IMG/VR virus record: IMGVR_UViG_3300009593_000122
Coordinates: 1-23,879 of that record
DNA length: 23,879 nt
From: a virus
Strand: one strand, 5' to 3'
Shown here: in pieces, positions 10,651-15,525 of the stretch
How the letters are laid out: each line of letters opens with the position of its first letter
Numbering within the stretch: the stretch's first letter is position 1
Notes under the pieces: model-generated
The model's database searches: none
The model's input: the letters and a program-made list of their open reading frames with translations, nothing else
What the model was told of the DNA's origin: nothing
Translations under genes and position numbers: made by a program

Positions 10651-11752
10651 CACCTTCTCCCACTAGATTGTCAATCGATATTTGTTTTGGAAAACCAAGA
10701 AACTCTAAGAACGAACATAGAGTAAATGGTATCGGTATATCATCTGGTATAAGTATTCCAATATACTTTTTAAGAGAATCTAAAACTGCTTCAAGTAACA
10801 TTTGAGGTAGATTTCTTATGAAGTTATCAATTCTGTCTCTTAACTTATCTATGTTCCAGTTTGGAAAATCTACTTTTTTAAACTCACCTATTTCTTCTAA
10901 ATCAATTAAGTCACCTAATGTCTCTGGTAAATCGAGTCCTACTAATTCTGCCTGACCAGCTATTTCTGATACTACTGGTAAAGGGTATGCAAGTAATTCT
11001 TCTTGGAAATCTTTACCTGCTTCTTTAAATTGTTTTTTTAATCCCATAAGAAATGCATCGGTATCAAAATCTAGTTGACCACCATTTACAACCATGCCTG
11101 GCAAACTTATTAGTAAGTCTAGGTAATCTGTGAATGGACTTCCAGCTGCCTTAATAGCTTCTATTACAGTTTCAAGAGCTGCATCTTCTAATATATCTTT
11201 TAGTGTACCAAAAATATTTCCTTGAAATAATTCTTTTACTTTTGCAACAAACTCTTTCCATGCTTTACTCATCTTAATTGCTGGTGCATCAATACCATCT
11301 GTACCATCCCAGTTTTCTAAAACAAAATCTGGAACAAGTAAGTCTATTATTTCATCACCAGCTTCTTGGAATTCTGTTAAGAGTTTTGCTTTATAATCTG
11401 GGTCTGTTATTAATTTTTTAACATCAACTGTTATACCTGTAATTGGTTCTATAACAGTTAAAGGAATTGGTATTATTGAACTAAATTTTTCTGCAATGAA
11501 GACCAGTGGATATAATTTAAATTCTTCAATGATTGCTTGTATCTTACCTTCCCATTCTAATTCTGGTATATCTAAAGTAATACCATCCCAAGAATGAGAT
11601 AAAGGAAATGCACCTAATAATTCTTCAAGAGGTTTAATATATTCCCAACCATATTGATTCCCAATAAAAATTATTATTTTTTCTAGGTCATCAGCAGTTG
11701 GTTTAACAACCTTCGGACATGGGACTTTAACTGGTTCAGTAGAGGTTGTCAT
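10646..11752 (-). CDS. Unrecognised helical protein in the baseplate operon
   Basis: I do not recognise this 368-residue protein. It is acidic, mostly amphipathic helix by eye, and rich in Ile, Leu, Glu and Lys. It contains LEKIIIFIGNQYGWEYIKPL near the N-terminus and several proline-bounded segments such as PIPLTVIEPITG and LAYPLPVVSEIAG. It has no signal peptide and no obvious membrane helix, apart from a hydrophobic C-terminal stretch PDDIPIPFTLCSFLEFLGFP. Its start codon overlaps the gp5 stop by one base (TAATG), which indicates translational coupling. The position between gp5 and gp25 suggests a virion or baseplate-assembly protein of the marine T4-like group; no more specific function is supported. 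Confidence 0.5.
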   Translation of the reverse strand: MTTSTEPVKVPCPKVVKPTADDLEKIIIFIGNQYGWEYIKPLEELLGAFPLSHSWDGITLDIPELEWEGKIQAIIEEFKLYPLVFIAEKFSSIIPIPLTVIEPITGITVDVKKLITDPDYKAKLLTEFQEAGDEIIDLLVPDFVLENWDGTDGIDAPAIKMSKAWKEFVAKVKELFQGNIFGTLKDILEDAALETVIEAIKAAGSPFTDYLDLLISLPGMVVNGGQLDFDTDAFLMGLKKQFKEAGKDFQEELLAYPLPVVSEIAGQAELVGLDLPETLGDLIDLEEIGEFKKVDFPNWNIDKLRDRIDNFIRNLPQMLLEAVLDSLKKYIGILIPDDIPIPFTLCSFLEFLGFPKQISIDNLVGEGA

Positions 11753-12915
11753 TAATCGTACTTAGTACCATTTAATGATACATTACCTTTTAATTTAATT
11801 GCACCACCTTTAGAAGTAATTGTGCAGTCTTTATCTACAGTAATAAAAACATTACCACCATCTTCGGTTTTTCCTTTTTTAGTAATTAAATTATAATCAC
11901 CATTTGCAAGTTCTATATCTGCACTACCAGCTATTAATATTTTTTTATCCTTCATTATTATTTCATAAGAATCATTAGAGACTTTCATTGTCTGTGAACC
12001 ATCTGGTAATATTTCTAAACGAGTCCCAGACCTATGATACATATGTAATCTTTCTGAGCCAGGGGTATCATCCATTTCTAATACATGACCAGATTCGGAT
12101 TCAACAATATGTGCAAAAGGATATATTGGATTTACTACTTCTTGACGACTTAATTCTTTAACTGTACCACCTTTAGTTTGTTCGATTAAATTATGTGGAT
12201 AAGAATTTAATTGACCTTGCATAGTTCTATGCACATCGGATAATTTATTTTCAGTATATTCTTTTCTCGGAAAGTTTTCTTTAAGTCTAGCAGCTTGATT
12301 ATGAGTATCGCCTGAACCAAATATCTTACCTACTATTCCCTCGGCAATTTTGTCAAGAAGACTTTTATCTTTACCACCATCAATAACAGTACCCATACCA
12401 TCCAATTTAAATTCTAAGGTATTCGGTCTTACTGGAGAATTTTCTAGAGTTAATCCAAATGCATAGTTTCTTCCAGTCTCACTATTTTTTATTCCATCAG
12501 AAGAAGCGTCAAATGCAGCTGAATCTGCATAACGAGAGTCATTAAATCCCTTATCGGGCCCTCGGTCTACTTGTTTATTAGAGTCACCACCATCGATTTT
12601 ATATTTATCAGAAGGTCTACCAAATAAACTACCAATAACTACAAAGTCTTGCATCTCATCTTCGTCTCGGAAAAATCCCATAACAGTAGAACCATCTACC
12701 AGTCCATGAGGAGAGAGACCAAGACCAGAAAGACTTGGAGAAGTGGTCGGCATAAGGACATCACTCCAAGGTAAATCACCTGTAGAGATTAATTTTTTAT
12801 CATCGGTATGAAGACCATAGAGACGAACACGAACACGACCCAAAGATAGTGGGTCAAATCGGTCTTCGACTACTCCTGTATAAAAATTATTCTTTAATCC
12901 TGCGAATGTCGGCAT
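11752..12915 (-). CDS. 5: Baseplate hub/spike protein gp5, without lysozyme domain
   Basis: The N-terminal part is a gp5/VgrG OB-fold: NNFYTGVVEDRFDPLSLGRV, then RVRLYGLHT and a long segment ending MQDFVVIGSLFGRP. The C-terminal third has short beta repeats (GDYNLITKKGK, GNVFITVDKDCTITSKGGAI) like the spike beta-helix. T4 gp5 (575 aa) carries a lysozyme domain between these parts; here the length is only 387 aa and no E-D-T-type lysozyme motif is seen, so peptidoglycan cutting must be done elsewhere or is not needed. The trimer would sit on gp27 at the tip of the tail. The ribosome site (GGAATAAGAG) lies inside the 3' end of a small overlapping ORF. Confidence 0.85.
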   Translation of the reverse strand: MPTFAGLKNNFYTGVVEDRFDPLSLGRVRVRLYGLHTDDKKLISTGDLPWSDVLMPTTSPSLSGLGLSPHGLVDGSTVMGFFRDEDEMQDFVVIGSLFGRPSDKYKIDGGDSNKQVDRGPDKGFNDSRYADSAAFDASSDGIKNSETGRNYAFGLTLENSPVRPNTLEFKLDGMGTVIDGGKDKSLLDKIAEGIVGKIFGSGDTHNQAARLKENFPRKEYTENKLSDVHRTMQGQLNSYPHNLIEQTKGGTVKELSRQEVVNPIYPFAHIVESESGHVLEMDDTPGSERLHMYHRSGTRLEILPDGSQTMKVSNDSYEIIMKDKKILIAGSADIELANGDYNLITKKGKTEDGGNVFITVDKDCTITSKGGAIKLKGNVSLNGTKYD

Positions 12916-13006
12916 CTCTTATTCCTTTGTTATATCCATCCTTCCATATAAAGTACACCATAGGTATTAATACTACCATATGAAAGAATATTACTGTATT
13001 ACTCAT
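12887..13006 (-). CDS. Tiny membrane ORF (39 aa) between panD and gp5
   Basis: Not recognised. The frame reads MSNTVIFFHMVVLIPMVYFI, then WKDGYNKGIRDADIRRIKE and a stop. The first 20 residues form one hydrophobic helix and the tail is charged, so a single-span membrane protein with the tail in the cytoplasm is likely. Its ATG overlaps the panD stop as ATGA (13006-13003), the arrangement of translational coupling, and its last 29 bases overlap the start of gp5. It lacks an independent ribosome site. It belongs with three other small ORFs around panD. A non-coding leader is possible, but the repeated ATGA linkage favours translation. Confidence 0.5.
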   Translation of the reverse strand: MSNTVIFFHMVVLIPMVYFIWKDGYNKGIRDADIRRIKE

Positions 13007-13380
13007 GTCAATCCCAATAGTTCCCTATAAAGTCGGTCTTTAGGGTCGATTATTTTTATTTTCGGTTTATGTCTGAGAGGTAAAGTCTCCATACTCTCAT
13101 CCAATTGTATATAAGAACAAATAATCAGTTCGTCTCCTATATCGGTTAAATGGGCACCAGCACCATTGACTGATACCTCATTTGAACCTCTTGGTAATGG
13201 TAGGACATAGGTCGTATGTCGGTTACCATTGGTTTTATTATATACATCAACCTGTTCATGGACTAGGAGTCCCACCTCATCCATCCAGTCTTCATCAATT
13301 AATATACTACCTTCGTAGTCTAAATCTACATCGGTGCAGATACAACCATGTATTTTTGCACCTAATAAAGTTCTAATCAT
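13003..13380 (-). CDS. panD: Aspartate 1-decarboxylase PanD
   Basis: Converts L-aspartate to beta-alanine and CO2, the step that supplies beta-alanine for pantothenate and coenzyme A. The 125 residues match bacterial PanD (E. coli 126 aa) nearly end to end in spacing. The opening MIRTLLGAKIHG parallels MIRTMLQGKLHR, and the self-cleavage site Gly24-Ser25 in YEGS is at the canonical position, so Ser25 can become the pyruvoyl group. Lys9, His11, Tyr22, Arg54, Thr57, Tyr58 and Asn72, the known active-site residues, are all in register (TNGNRHTTY, VSVNGAGAH). It looks fully functional. It is flanked by tiny membrane ORFs joined by ATGA overlaps on both sides and lies between the hub genes gp27 and gp5, under a separate late promoter at 13818. 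As an auxiliary metabolic gene it could raise CoA supply during infection; a virion role cannot be excluded. Confidence 0.93.
   Translation of the reverse strand: MIRTLLGAKIHGCICTDVDLDYEGSILIDEDWMDEVGLLVHEQVDVYNKTNGNRHTTYVLPLPRGSNEVSVNGAGAHLTDIGDELIICSYIQLDESMETLPLRHKPKIKIIDPKDRLYRELLGLT
13264..13273. repeat. TAGGAGTCCC copy inside panD
   Basis: An exact copy of the 10-bp repeat lies in the coding sequence of panD, where the minus strand reads GGA CTC CTA and encodes Gly-Leu-Leu (residues 37-39). It has the same orientation as the intergenic array. Confidence 0.7.
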
Positions 13381-13472
13381 AATTCTTCTTTATCCCATAA
13401 CCAAATAAACAACATGGGTAATCCTATCCATGCAAATAGTGTTAAACTAATATATGTAATTACTTCAATCAT
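13377..13472 (-). CDS. Tiny membrane ORF (31 aa) just before panD
   Basis: Not recognised. The frame encodes MIEVITYISLTLFAWIGLPM followed by LFIWLWDKEEL and a stop. Nearly the whole protein is one hydrophobic helix (residues 3-26) with an acidic end. Its start overlaps the preceding stop as ATGA (13472-13469), and its own stop overlaps the panD ATG in the same way (13380-13377). This double coupling is the main argument that it is translated. Length is too short for family assignment. Confidence 0.5.
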   Translation of the reverse strand: MIEVITYISLTLFAWIGLPMLFIWLWDKEEL

Positions 13473-13654
13473 TGTATCCAACACACTGGGTAAACACACC
13501 AATAGGGATTAAATACTCCCATCATCCATAGGATTAGGAGTCCCAAGGGTATTTTAACCCATAATTTATCTTTAGACCACTCTTTAAACCTTAAAGCATG
13601 TGGTACTAGTTTATTATATAGCCAATTACTCATTATATTGTGGTAAAATAACAT
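13469..13654 (-). CDS. Small membrane protein (61 aa, or 54 aa from an inner Met)
   Basis: Not recognised. The ORF gives MLFYHNIMSNWLYNKLVPHA and then LRFKEWSKDKLWVKIPLGLL and a hydrophobic, aromatic C-terminus with two cysteines (WMMGVFNPYWCVYPVCWIQ). One membrane span is likely at residues 32-45. An inner start at 13633 (MSNWLYNK) is equally possible because neither start has a strong ribosome site; the outer start lies 4 bases after the preceding ORF's stop. A copy of the TAGGAGTCCC repeat lies inside and encodes Gly-Leu-Leu. It is the second gene of the panD cassette. Confidence 0.5.
   Translation of the reverse strand: MLFYHNIMSNWLYNKLVPHALRFKEWSKDKLWVKIPLGLLILWMMGVFNPYWCVYPVCWIQ
13535..13544. 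repeat. TAGGAGTCCC copy inside the 61-aa ORF
   Basis: An exact copy of the 10-bp repeat in the same orientation, again read as GGA CTC CTA (Gly-Leu-Leu) in the small membrane ORF. Together with the panD copy it extends the repeat field to 13264-13985. Confidence 0.7.
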
Positions 13655-13658
13655 TTCA

Positions 13659-13799
13659 TTAAAACATCCATACTATAATAGATGTAAATATTACACCTTT
13701 CATAAAACAAAACCATGATAAGGTATATTCATCCATACCAGTAATGTCCATTAAATCGAATAACATTCTTTTATGGGAGTCTATTAGATTCTTAATCAT
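13659..13799 (-). CDS. Small protein (46 aa), first ORF of the panD cassette
   Basis: Not recognised. The frame reads MIKNLIDSHKRMLFDLMDIT, then GMDEYTLSWFCFMKGVIFTS and IIVWMF. The N-terminal half is an amphipathic helix and the C-terminal 18 residues are hydrophobic. It has the best initiation signals of the cassette: an exact late promoter box at 13818-13825 and AGAGGAAATAAT before the ATG, giving a leader of about 13 bases. A late transcript starting here would read on through the 61-aa, 31-aa, panD, 39-aa and gp5 genes. Confidence 0.6.
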   Translation of the reverse strand: MIKNLIDSHKRMLFDLMDITGMDEYTLSWFCFMKGVIFTSIIVWMF

Positions 13800-13817: not shown

Positions 13818-13825
13818 TATTTATA
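13818..13825 (-). promoter_or_regulatory. T4-type late promoter for the panD cassette
   Basis: Exact TATAAATA on the minus strand followed by CAAATAAGAGGAAATA and the ATG at 13799. The expected RNA start is near 13812. The box is immediately preceded by GGGACTCC, one copy of the repeat array, so the repeats sit directly upstream of the promoter. Confidence 0.75.
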
Positions 13826-13985
13826 GGAGTCCCAGAAGAATATCTAGGAGTCCCATCATAATAAAATAGGAGTCCCTTTTTAAAACTTAGGAGTCCCATC
13901 ATAATATAAAGCCTTTTTTTAACATTTACTGCCCAAGACTTTAATAGGGGTAGCAATGCCCAGCTGATTTGAGTCTAGGAGTCCC
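13824..13985. repeat. Phased direct repeats of TAGGAGTCCC (five copies)
   Basis: Exact plus-strand copies of TAGGAGTCCC begin at 13824, 13845, 13867, 13888 and 13976. The first four are spaced 21, 22 and 21 bp, two turns of B-DNA, and the fifth is 88 bp further. Two copies (13845, 13888) share the longer 19-bp repeat TAGGAGTCCCATCATAATA. GGAGTCC is itself a near-palindrome around a central base. All lie in the otherwise gene-free stretch 13800-13998 between gp27 and the first cassette ORF. Helical spacing suggests binding sites for a protein acting on one face of DNA. An intergenic hairpin with a GCAA loop (13947-13960, plus strand) lies between copies four and five. Confidence 0.8.
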
Positions 13986-13998
13986 AAAACACTGTCCT

Positions 13999-15525
13999 TT
14001 AGTATTGCGGAGAGCCTTTGTGGTCAACAAAGGTATCTGGGTTCACTTGCCATCCATCTGTGGTGCATGTGAGTTGTGTTTCCAAGCCATCCTCAGTTCC
14101 TATCCAAGTAATACCTTCTACTAACATCCTACCATTCTGTGTCAGTTCATCTCTGACATCTGCTGTACTGGTAGGTTGTTTTAAATCTATATTAATAGTC
14201 ATGCCTGCACTGATATTAGTTCTCCCAGATATCTGGATATTCATTCTATTCGTCTCTAATAACTTCTCTGCGCGCTCTCGATGAAACTTATTCTTCTCCA
14301 TTGTATAACCTACACTCTGACCATCATCGGATATCCCTTGACTAAACATGTAGGGGTTGTTATAATTAAACGATACAGCGGCTCCTGTGGCCTCTGTGAT
14401 AGGGTCATGTGGTATATCTGCATCTAAGGGCGGCATTTCCTCTCCTGCTATACCCCCATCTGGTGGAATCTTGATATTTTCTGCATTAAATCTAAAAGAA
14501 GGGGCTACTGAGAAGTGTTTTTTATCGTTTTTATAGAATCCATCATCATCTATAGGGAACTGTTGGTCGAATTGACTCGGAATATCCATTAATAGTTTGG
14601 TCTTAGGGTCAAATACCTGTATGTTACCACTATACATACCATGCAAATGACTGTCAAGTACATTATAAGTGTTACTCTTGTTGTAGGATAGGATGTCATT
14701 ACCCCTACCATCTTTGAAATCATAATTAAAGTCGTCATCTCCATCACCCATACGAGGAGAGAAGGTAACTTTGCCACCCATATACTCTGGAGTTCTCATA
14801 GATTCTATATTACGAAACATAAATCCATCCATACATGTCTGATAGAAGTAGTAAGAGTCTCCCCACTCCTCTGTATCGTCTGAGGTATTGTCTCTCAGCC
14901 ATCTCAGAGTCTTGAATACAGACCAGTTTGGGATAACCATTCCATTCACCTCTCCCACACCTGCCTCGAACTTGGAGAAGTAATTACCGAGTGCCTGCCC
15001 CCCCTTCACACGCGGTTTCGAACCTTTTTGTGGTGATGTTTTCTTCTTCGGTTTTTCTTGGAATTTTAATTTATCGAAACATATTTTATGTAATATATCT
15101 CCAGTCTTTCCTCTATATGCCTGAGATATTCTCTGAGTTCGTGCAAGATATAATAAAGGAGAACAAAATTCCACTCTATATATCTGGAGAGCTGGATTTT
15201 CTATACTTCTGATATGATTAGAGACATTAAATATACGAAATACTTGGTCTATTCTCTGTTCATGTGGTACAATTTCCTCAAATCCTCTTATACCACCGAT
15301 ATGTATTCGAATATATTCTTGTCCTGTGAATCCAATCTTATTAAATATATTCATTGAATCTGCAAAGGTCATACTACCTGTGAGAAACATCTGATATATA
15401 CTCTCAGTAATCTGAAAGGATTGCATTAAATTACTCACTTCATATGAGTTACCTTCATTATTTGTTATGGTGATACTCTCAATCCTATAAGAATTAGGAG
15501 TATTTTTACCTATCATTATGGGCAT
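13999..15525 (-). CDS. 27: Baseplate hub protein gp27
   Basis: Homologue of the T4 gp27 hub, the trimeric adaptor between the gp5 spike and the tube. The N-terminal domain (IESITITNNEGNSYEVSNLM, then FQITESIYQMFLTGSMTFAD) and the later VIPNWSVFKTLRWLRDNTSD segment are typical of gp27/gpD-like hubs, as is the C-terminal SGRTNISAGMTINIDL block. The length is 508 aa against 391 in T4; part of the increase is a basic linker around residues 155-180 (KPKKKTSPQKGSKPRVKGG). Hand counts of two stretches (14041-14100 and 14401-14460) give about 50% G+C, clearly above genes to the left. The gene follows gp53 by 4 bases with the ribosome site AAGAGAGTAA. In T4, gene 27 is not next to gene 53, so the order here is rearranged. 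Confidence 0.85.
   Translation of the reverse strand: MPIMIGKNTPNSYRIESITITNNEGNSYEVSNLMQSFQITESIYQMFLTGSMTFADSMNIFNKIGFTGQEYIRIHIGGIRGFEEIVPHEQRIDQVFRIFNVSNHIRSIENPALQIYRVEFCSPLLYLARTQRISQAYRGKTGDILHKICFDKLKFQEKPKKKTSPQKGSKPRVKGGQALGNYFSKFEAGVGEVNGMVIPNWSVFKTLRWLRDNTSDDTEEWGDSYYFYQTCMDGFMFRNIESMRTPEYMGGKVTFSPRMGDGDDDFNYDFKDGRGNDILSYNKSNTYNVLDSHLHGMYSGNIQVFDPKTKLLMDIPSQFDQQFPIDDDGFYKNDKKHFSVAPSFRFNAENIKIPPDGGIAGEEMPPLDADIPHDPITEATGAAVSFNYNNPYMFSQGISDDGQSVGYTMEKNKFHRERAEKLLETNRMNIQISGRTNISAGMTINIDLKQPTSTADVRDELTQNGRMLVEGITWIGTEDGLETQLTCTTDGWQVNPDTFVDHKGSPQY

Follow-up and report, generated by a model that had tools for sequence, protein, structure and literature searches.

Exact 10-bp direct repeats beside a late-type promoter box suggest a strictly kept control site in marine T4-like phages

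T4-like phages are among the most abundant marine viruses, and their late genes were thought to need a TATA-like box alone. Repeated sites are familiar from the lac operon, where the operator O3 lies upstream of the promoter, O1 at the promoter and O2 inside lacZ; these operators are imperfect palindromes that vary. At T4 late promoters (TATAAATA, with gp55, gp33 and gp45) there is no upstream or −35 element, and the enhancer of T4 late transcription consists of a break in the non-transcribed strand, effective from upstream or downstream and over kilobases (review PMC2988020). Repeats also occur at the T4 replication origin oriE, where 12-nt ‘iterons’ have a role that is unproven (PMC3016281), and in iteron plasmid origins, which in general carry direct repeats at a spacing of roughly two helical turns (reviewed in PMC4980987).

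Here, we describe an array of exact 10-bp repeats beside a late-type promoter box in a 23,879-nucleotide stretch of viral DNA (the window). Like T4 oriE, the array is made up of direct repeats, lies in the gp53-gp5 region of a T4-like genome and has a strand switch nearby. The visible T4 repeats differ in that they lie within the gene 5 coding sequence and have another sequence, whereas the array repeats are 10 bp long, identical, mainly intergenic and placed beside a late-type box, with further copies downstream. The T4 units (L146:4420-4560; T4 79.4-79.6 kb) are GTTGAAGGTAATG-like, recur ~24 bp apart in gene 5 and encode a repeated V(E/K)GN peptide, so the oriE ‘iterons’ may be protein repeats. 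The box beside the array is the same late box as at T4 late promoters, but here an exact repeat touches it and other copies lie up- and downstream. As in the lac operon, sites lie before and at the promoter and also within the first genes; the array copies differ from lac operators in being all identical and in the same orientation. Direct repeats at roughly two-turn spacing also recall iteron plasmid origins, yet the array has fewer copies, no nearby Rep gene, sites in coding sequence and contact with a promoter box. Three further resemblances were set aside. The motif contains GACTC, a GANTC sequence as in GcrA/CcrM control, but it is strict over 10 bp and phage GcrA was found in none of 11 array-bearing records, some of which are fragments; GcrA/CcrM control was rejected. 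The likeness of GACTCCTATA to the T7 promoter and that of GACTCCTA to 16S rRNA were judged coincidental.

The initial annotation had reported five exact 10-bp copies directly upstream of a late-type promoter box. Both claims are borne out, and two further exact copies lie downstream, one of them inside panD. The seven TAGGAGTCCC copies in the window lie at positions 13824, 13845, 13867, 13888, 13976, 13535 and 13264; all seven read GGGACTCCTA on the minus (coding) strand and none does so on the other. The steps between the five array copies are 21, 22, 21 and 88 bp. With up to one mismatch allowed, the window holds 9 matches to the motif; shuffling predicts 0.68, and none of 100 shuffles reached 9. 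The surroundings are a T4-like baseplate region with the order gp4-like, tail tube cap, gp53-like, hub-like, array, 46-aa ORF, small ORF, panD, gp5-like, gp25-like and gp6-like. In the list that follows, group A denotes the 41 contigs, including the window, that make up one of two large groups carrying exact pairs of the repeat; the other, group B, also comprises 41 contigs.

13999..15525, minus strand: tail/hub-like protein (PHROG 350), just upstream of the array
13976..13985, minus strand: repeat copy 5, the upstream single site, 88 bp before the next copy in the window
13888..13897, minus strand: repeat copy 4, a duplicate of copy 2
13867..13876, minus strand: repeat copy 3, within a 43-bp tandem duplication seen in the window only
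13845..13854, minus strand: repeat copy 2, which with copy 1 forms the pair kept in all group A relatives
13824..13833, minus strand: repeat copy 1, reading GGGACTCCTA on the minus strand, with its TA shared with the TATAAATA box
13825-13818, minus strand: late-type promoter box TATAAATA, sharing two bases with the end of copy 1
13659..13799, minus strand: 46-aa ORF, the first gene after the array, present in every group A relative
13469..13654, minus strand: small ORF, 61 aa with an upstream start, carrying the copy at 13535
13535..13544, minus strand: downstream sense copy in the small ORF (L-G-L-L-I), in the closest relatives only
13003..13380, minus strand: panD, aspartate 1-decarboxylase (Pfam PF02261, E = 1.9e-34)
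13264..13273, minus strand: downstream sense copy within panD (GTG GGA CTC CTA = V-G-L-L), conserved at the nucleotide level
11752..12915, minus strand: gp5-like baseplate hub and tail lysozyme, downstream of panD

The extra copies of the window are ascribed to the 43-bp duplication because the pair alone is present in the closest relative, the phage contig L139, and in other near relatives; on the plus strand, ATCATAATA follows both copy 2 and copy 4. The 46-aa ORF has a hydrophobic C-terminus, and a search for a PHROG match to it returned none.

All 31 distinct group A arrays have a TAAATA core touching their last repeat, and in the related 146-kb genome (G013) the late box enriched upstream of genes is TATAAATA. 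Judged from its sequence, the box beside the array is a putative promoter of the T4 late type. It departs from that type in its exact upstream repeats, which are present in all relatives; the earlier remark that T4 late promoters normally need no upstream array agrees with the published review (PMC2988020). As in an operator array, the repeats hold a fixed place relative to the promoter box.

Comparison across related phages, a check put forward in the initial annotation, found the repeats and their layout conserved in ~40 related contigs. Most group A relatives have two evenly spaced copies and one distant copy, in a sequence and form unlike the T4 oriE repeats. The copies of the pair are spaced by 19, 20 or 21 bp, and all relatives that include the region have a single site 61, 87-88 or 93-95 bp upstream of the pair; array spacing in the window's lineage overall is 19-22 bp. 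Copies beyond the array lie downstream, within ~3.5 kb and on the sense strand. Counted over homologous loci, group A sites beyond the array number 53 sense versus 2 antisense, and the coding copies occur in three reading frames.

The 31 distinct group A arrays contain 95 exact copies and none with one or two mismatches. Since these arrays, like those used to assess exactness in group B, had been selected by exact pairs, the test was repeated on loci found independently of the motif, through the hub or panD protein. The resulting 24 distinct arrays hold 71 exact copies and again none with 1-2 mismatches, while the spacers between the pair copies are only ~59% identical. G013 has 90 predicted ORFs in common with Pelagibacter phage HTVC008M, which keeps the same gene order but has no GGACTCC in the corresponding region, and GGGACTCC is absent from Marine virus AG-345-O18, the best-covered baseplate match.

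Inside panD, the motif falls in codons V36-G37-L38-L39. The first three of these are GTG-GGA-CTC in all 39 sequences; at the fourth codon, 33 have CTA and 6 have CTT. Other valine, leucine, threonine and proline codons of panD vary, and among 32 distinct panD segments (210 nt, 87% mean identity) the sole invariant run of at least 8 nt is one of 17 nt that contains the motif. Invariant motif codons amid variable ones, together with this lone invariant run, point to selection on the nucleotide sequence and indicate that DNA-level selection overrides codon drift at the motif. All panD relatives of at least 78% identity with sequence on the array side have the array, so among close relatives the cassette was not found without its repeats. 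In other phages with panD at 70% identity, GTAGGAATCC takes the place of the motif and the array is absent; panD was rejected as the carrier of the motif because distant panD genes lack it. Phage contigs L179-L182 also have panD, in a different gene context and without the repeats.

We searched IMG/VR for exact tandem pairs with 5-20 bp between copies. Direct pairs were found in 98 contigs from many metagenomes, against 3 contigs for an inverted-arrangement control and 15 for a reversed-pattern control, several of the latter with copies at multiples of 9 bp, like coding repeats. A few of the 98 likewise look like chance or coding repeats (e.g. L039/L102). In 257 Gb of bacterial genomes there were 12 pairs, approximately our chance estimate, and one of these is L139. 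This contig is binned in a Synechococcus sp. CPC35 metagenome-assembled genome, and binning is no proof of host. Group B contigs carry a T4-type terminase and portal, and exact pairs occur in at least two divergent T4-like lineages. Rather than being scattered genome-wide, the repeats form a single cluster in one orientation in each of the large records (112-146 kb), with 4 copies within 560 bp in the 146-kb record, 2 in that of 130 kb and 3 in that of 112 kb.

One of the options raised initially, a control layer special to the panD cassette, is not supported, given the position of the array in other lineages as well as its absence beside panD at 70% identity. Relatives with a hub identity of 36-38%, in which no panD was found, have a hub-gp5 interval without a site; instead, they carry sense-strand GGGACTCC sites downstream of gp5, around accessory small ORFs. 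Group B arrays sit between divergent genes, at a strand switch and at the head of the terminase/portal operon; most contigs showing both array and terL have terL on the same strand, 1.1-6.3 kb farther downstream (one spans 12 kb). The layout of this second lineage is nonetheless similar, as the array likewise precedes a TATA-like box: several last copies touch TATATAA, and others have CTATATAA ~15 bp on. Its arrays contain 107 exact and 13 one-mismatch copies, and 8 of the 13 mismatches are at the last base. Group B spacing is mostly 15-21 bp with a mode of 17, so helical phasing is no general rule, and strict phasing was rejected on these grounds; the proposal that the copies lie on one helix face describes the 21/22/21-bp steps of the window but not the element in general. 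In group C (L012, L031), the array precedes a gene of opposite orientation.

We interpret the repeats as putative sites of one highly stringent, sequence-specific double-stranded DNA-binding factor that controls a single special late promoter, with a probability of a little under one half (about 0.48). The factor would occupy the pair at the promoter and bridge from there to the sites on either side, in the manner of lac repressor at O3, O1 and O2. The small-ORF/panD cassette could then be switched separately from other late genes. A DNA-level control element is favoured by the fixed relation to the box, the auxiliary sites, the absence of RNA covariation and the change of orientation in L012 and L031. 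Tolerated shifts in site-to-box and site-to-site distance would suit occlusion or looping better than a strictly phased activator. Overall, the letter-perfect conservation of the repeats, even of a copy within a gene, suggests a very strict control site at a late-type promoter in marine T4-like phages. Three expectations count against an operator. Ordinary operators usually vary between sites and between phages, copies this exact are more typical for the sites of enzymes or initiators, and a dedicated one-promoter factor would normally be encoded beside its promoter. None of the first genes after the array resembles a DNA-binding protein, and a search for a regulator among genes common to the array-bearing lineages beyond the T4 core detected none. 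The extreme exactness, unusual for an operator, keeps an origin or a clamp-loading site in play.

The main rival, which we consider rather unlikely, is a replication origin of the T4 oriE type, in which an initiator would bind the repeats as iterons and the neighbouring promoter would supply a primer transcript. An origin could explain why there is one locus per genome, with direct repeats near 20 bp in AT-rich surroundings, and T4 oriE also has evenly spaced 12-nt repeats (PMC3016281). The group A array occupies the gp53-gp5 interval, adjoining the place of T4 oriE and ~4 kb from the strand switch at gp4; that of the second lineage lies outside the gp53-gp5 region but does sit at a strand switch. 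However, cumulative GC skew is unchanged at the array in four large genomes, the sites extend up to 3.5 kb into coding sequence, and no initiator was found. The parallel with T4 is also weakened by the visible repeat unit near oriE, which is inside the gene 5 coding sequence with another sequence and form, and by HTVC008M, where the same gene order comes without the motif. An action at the RNA level, with GGGACUCC copies in late transcripts binding a protein or small RNA, appears improbable. In group A, the sense strand of late transcripts does carry sites, in untranslated as well as coding parts, but the pair and the upstream site precede the promoter box and would be absent from the cassette transcript. 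The group C arrays, antisense to the gene that follows, favour DNA over RNA. A covarying structure was sought and none was found; with no Rfam family above its gathering score either, a structured RNA element was rejected.

We give very little weight to the idea that the late activator of the T4 type loads at points set by the sequence of the repeats, where a strand-specific nick or similar entry at GGGACTCC would load the sliding clamp the right way round to activate late promoters. In group A, every array site and almost every extra site is indeed on the non-transcribed strand, from upstream of the box to ~3.5 kb beyond it, but the group C array, antisense to the gene that it precedes, argues against such loading, and we know of no nicking enzyme that would serve it. 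If this reading were true, the sites would be the first case of a mobile enhancer fixed in sequence. Packaging (pac) or site-specific recombination sites seem just as improbable. Their best argument comes from the second lineage, where nearly all contigs showing both have terL 1.1-6.3 kb after the array and where contigs often end just upstream of the array. These ends are at variable distances and some contigs run through the array for 47 kb, so there is no fixed terminus, and ~40 kb separates the group A array from the terminase genes. Moreover, one exact site shared by distant lineages is hard to reconcile with the rapid divergence of TerS proteins. A pac site or genome end was rejected for group A by terminase distance and for group B by the variable contig ends. 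As to chance, assembly artefact or functionless slippage repeats, the four-copy state of the window did arise through the 43-bp duplication, but such an explanation is already refuted by the controls: 98 contigs from many metagenomes stand against control counts near chance, copies stay exact despite divergent spacers and conservation in panD reaches the codon level.

A direct-repeat control array is an already known kind of element. A full-text literature search for the motif letters returned unrelated matches only, and the repeat sequence, its exactness, its one-locus distribution and its coding copies appear to be undescribed in the literature searched. An exact repeat that is confined to one locus in distant lineages, and that apparently overrides codon choice in a metabolic gene, may be a missing piece of T4-type gene control or of the start of replication. 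The motif also provides a defined 10-bp bait for finding its protein.

Group B offers several further observations. Contigs L014, L022, L032, L045, L049, L086 and L097 end within ~2 kb upstream of the array, and ends near the array are far commoner than random breakage predicts, although their distances vary; the cause could be a hypervariable early region or an effect linked to packaging. Many late genes of this group (L026 +12 to +2644, L035 +69 to +3321, L123:7998-9231) share an N-terminus like MN-YERIY-LLTE, which resembles a common capsid-targeting or internal-protein signal. At the arrays of L026, L035 and L050, TATATAA lies only a few bases before the ATG, and this closeness suggests that part of group B may produce leaderless mRNA.
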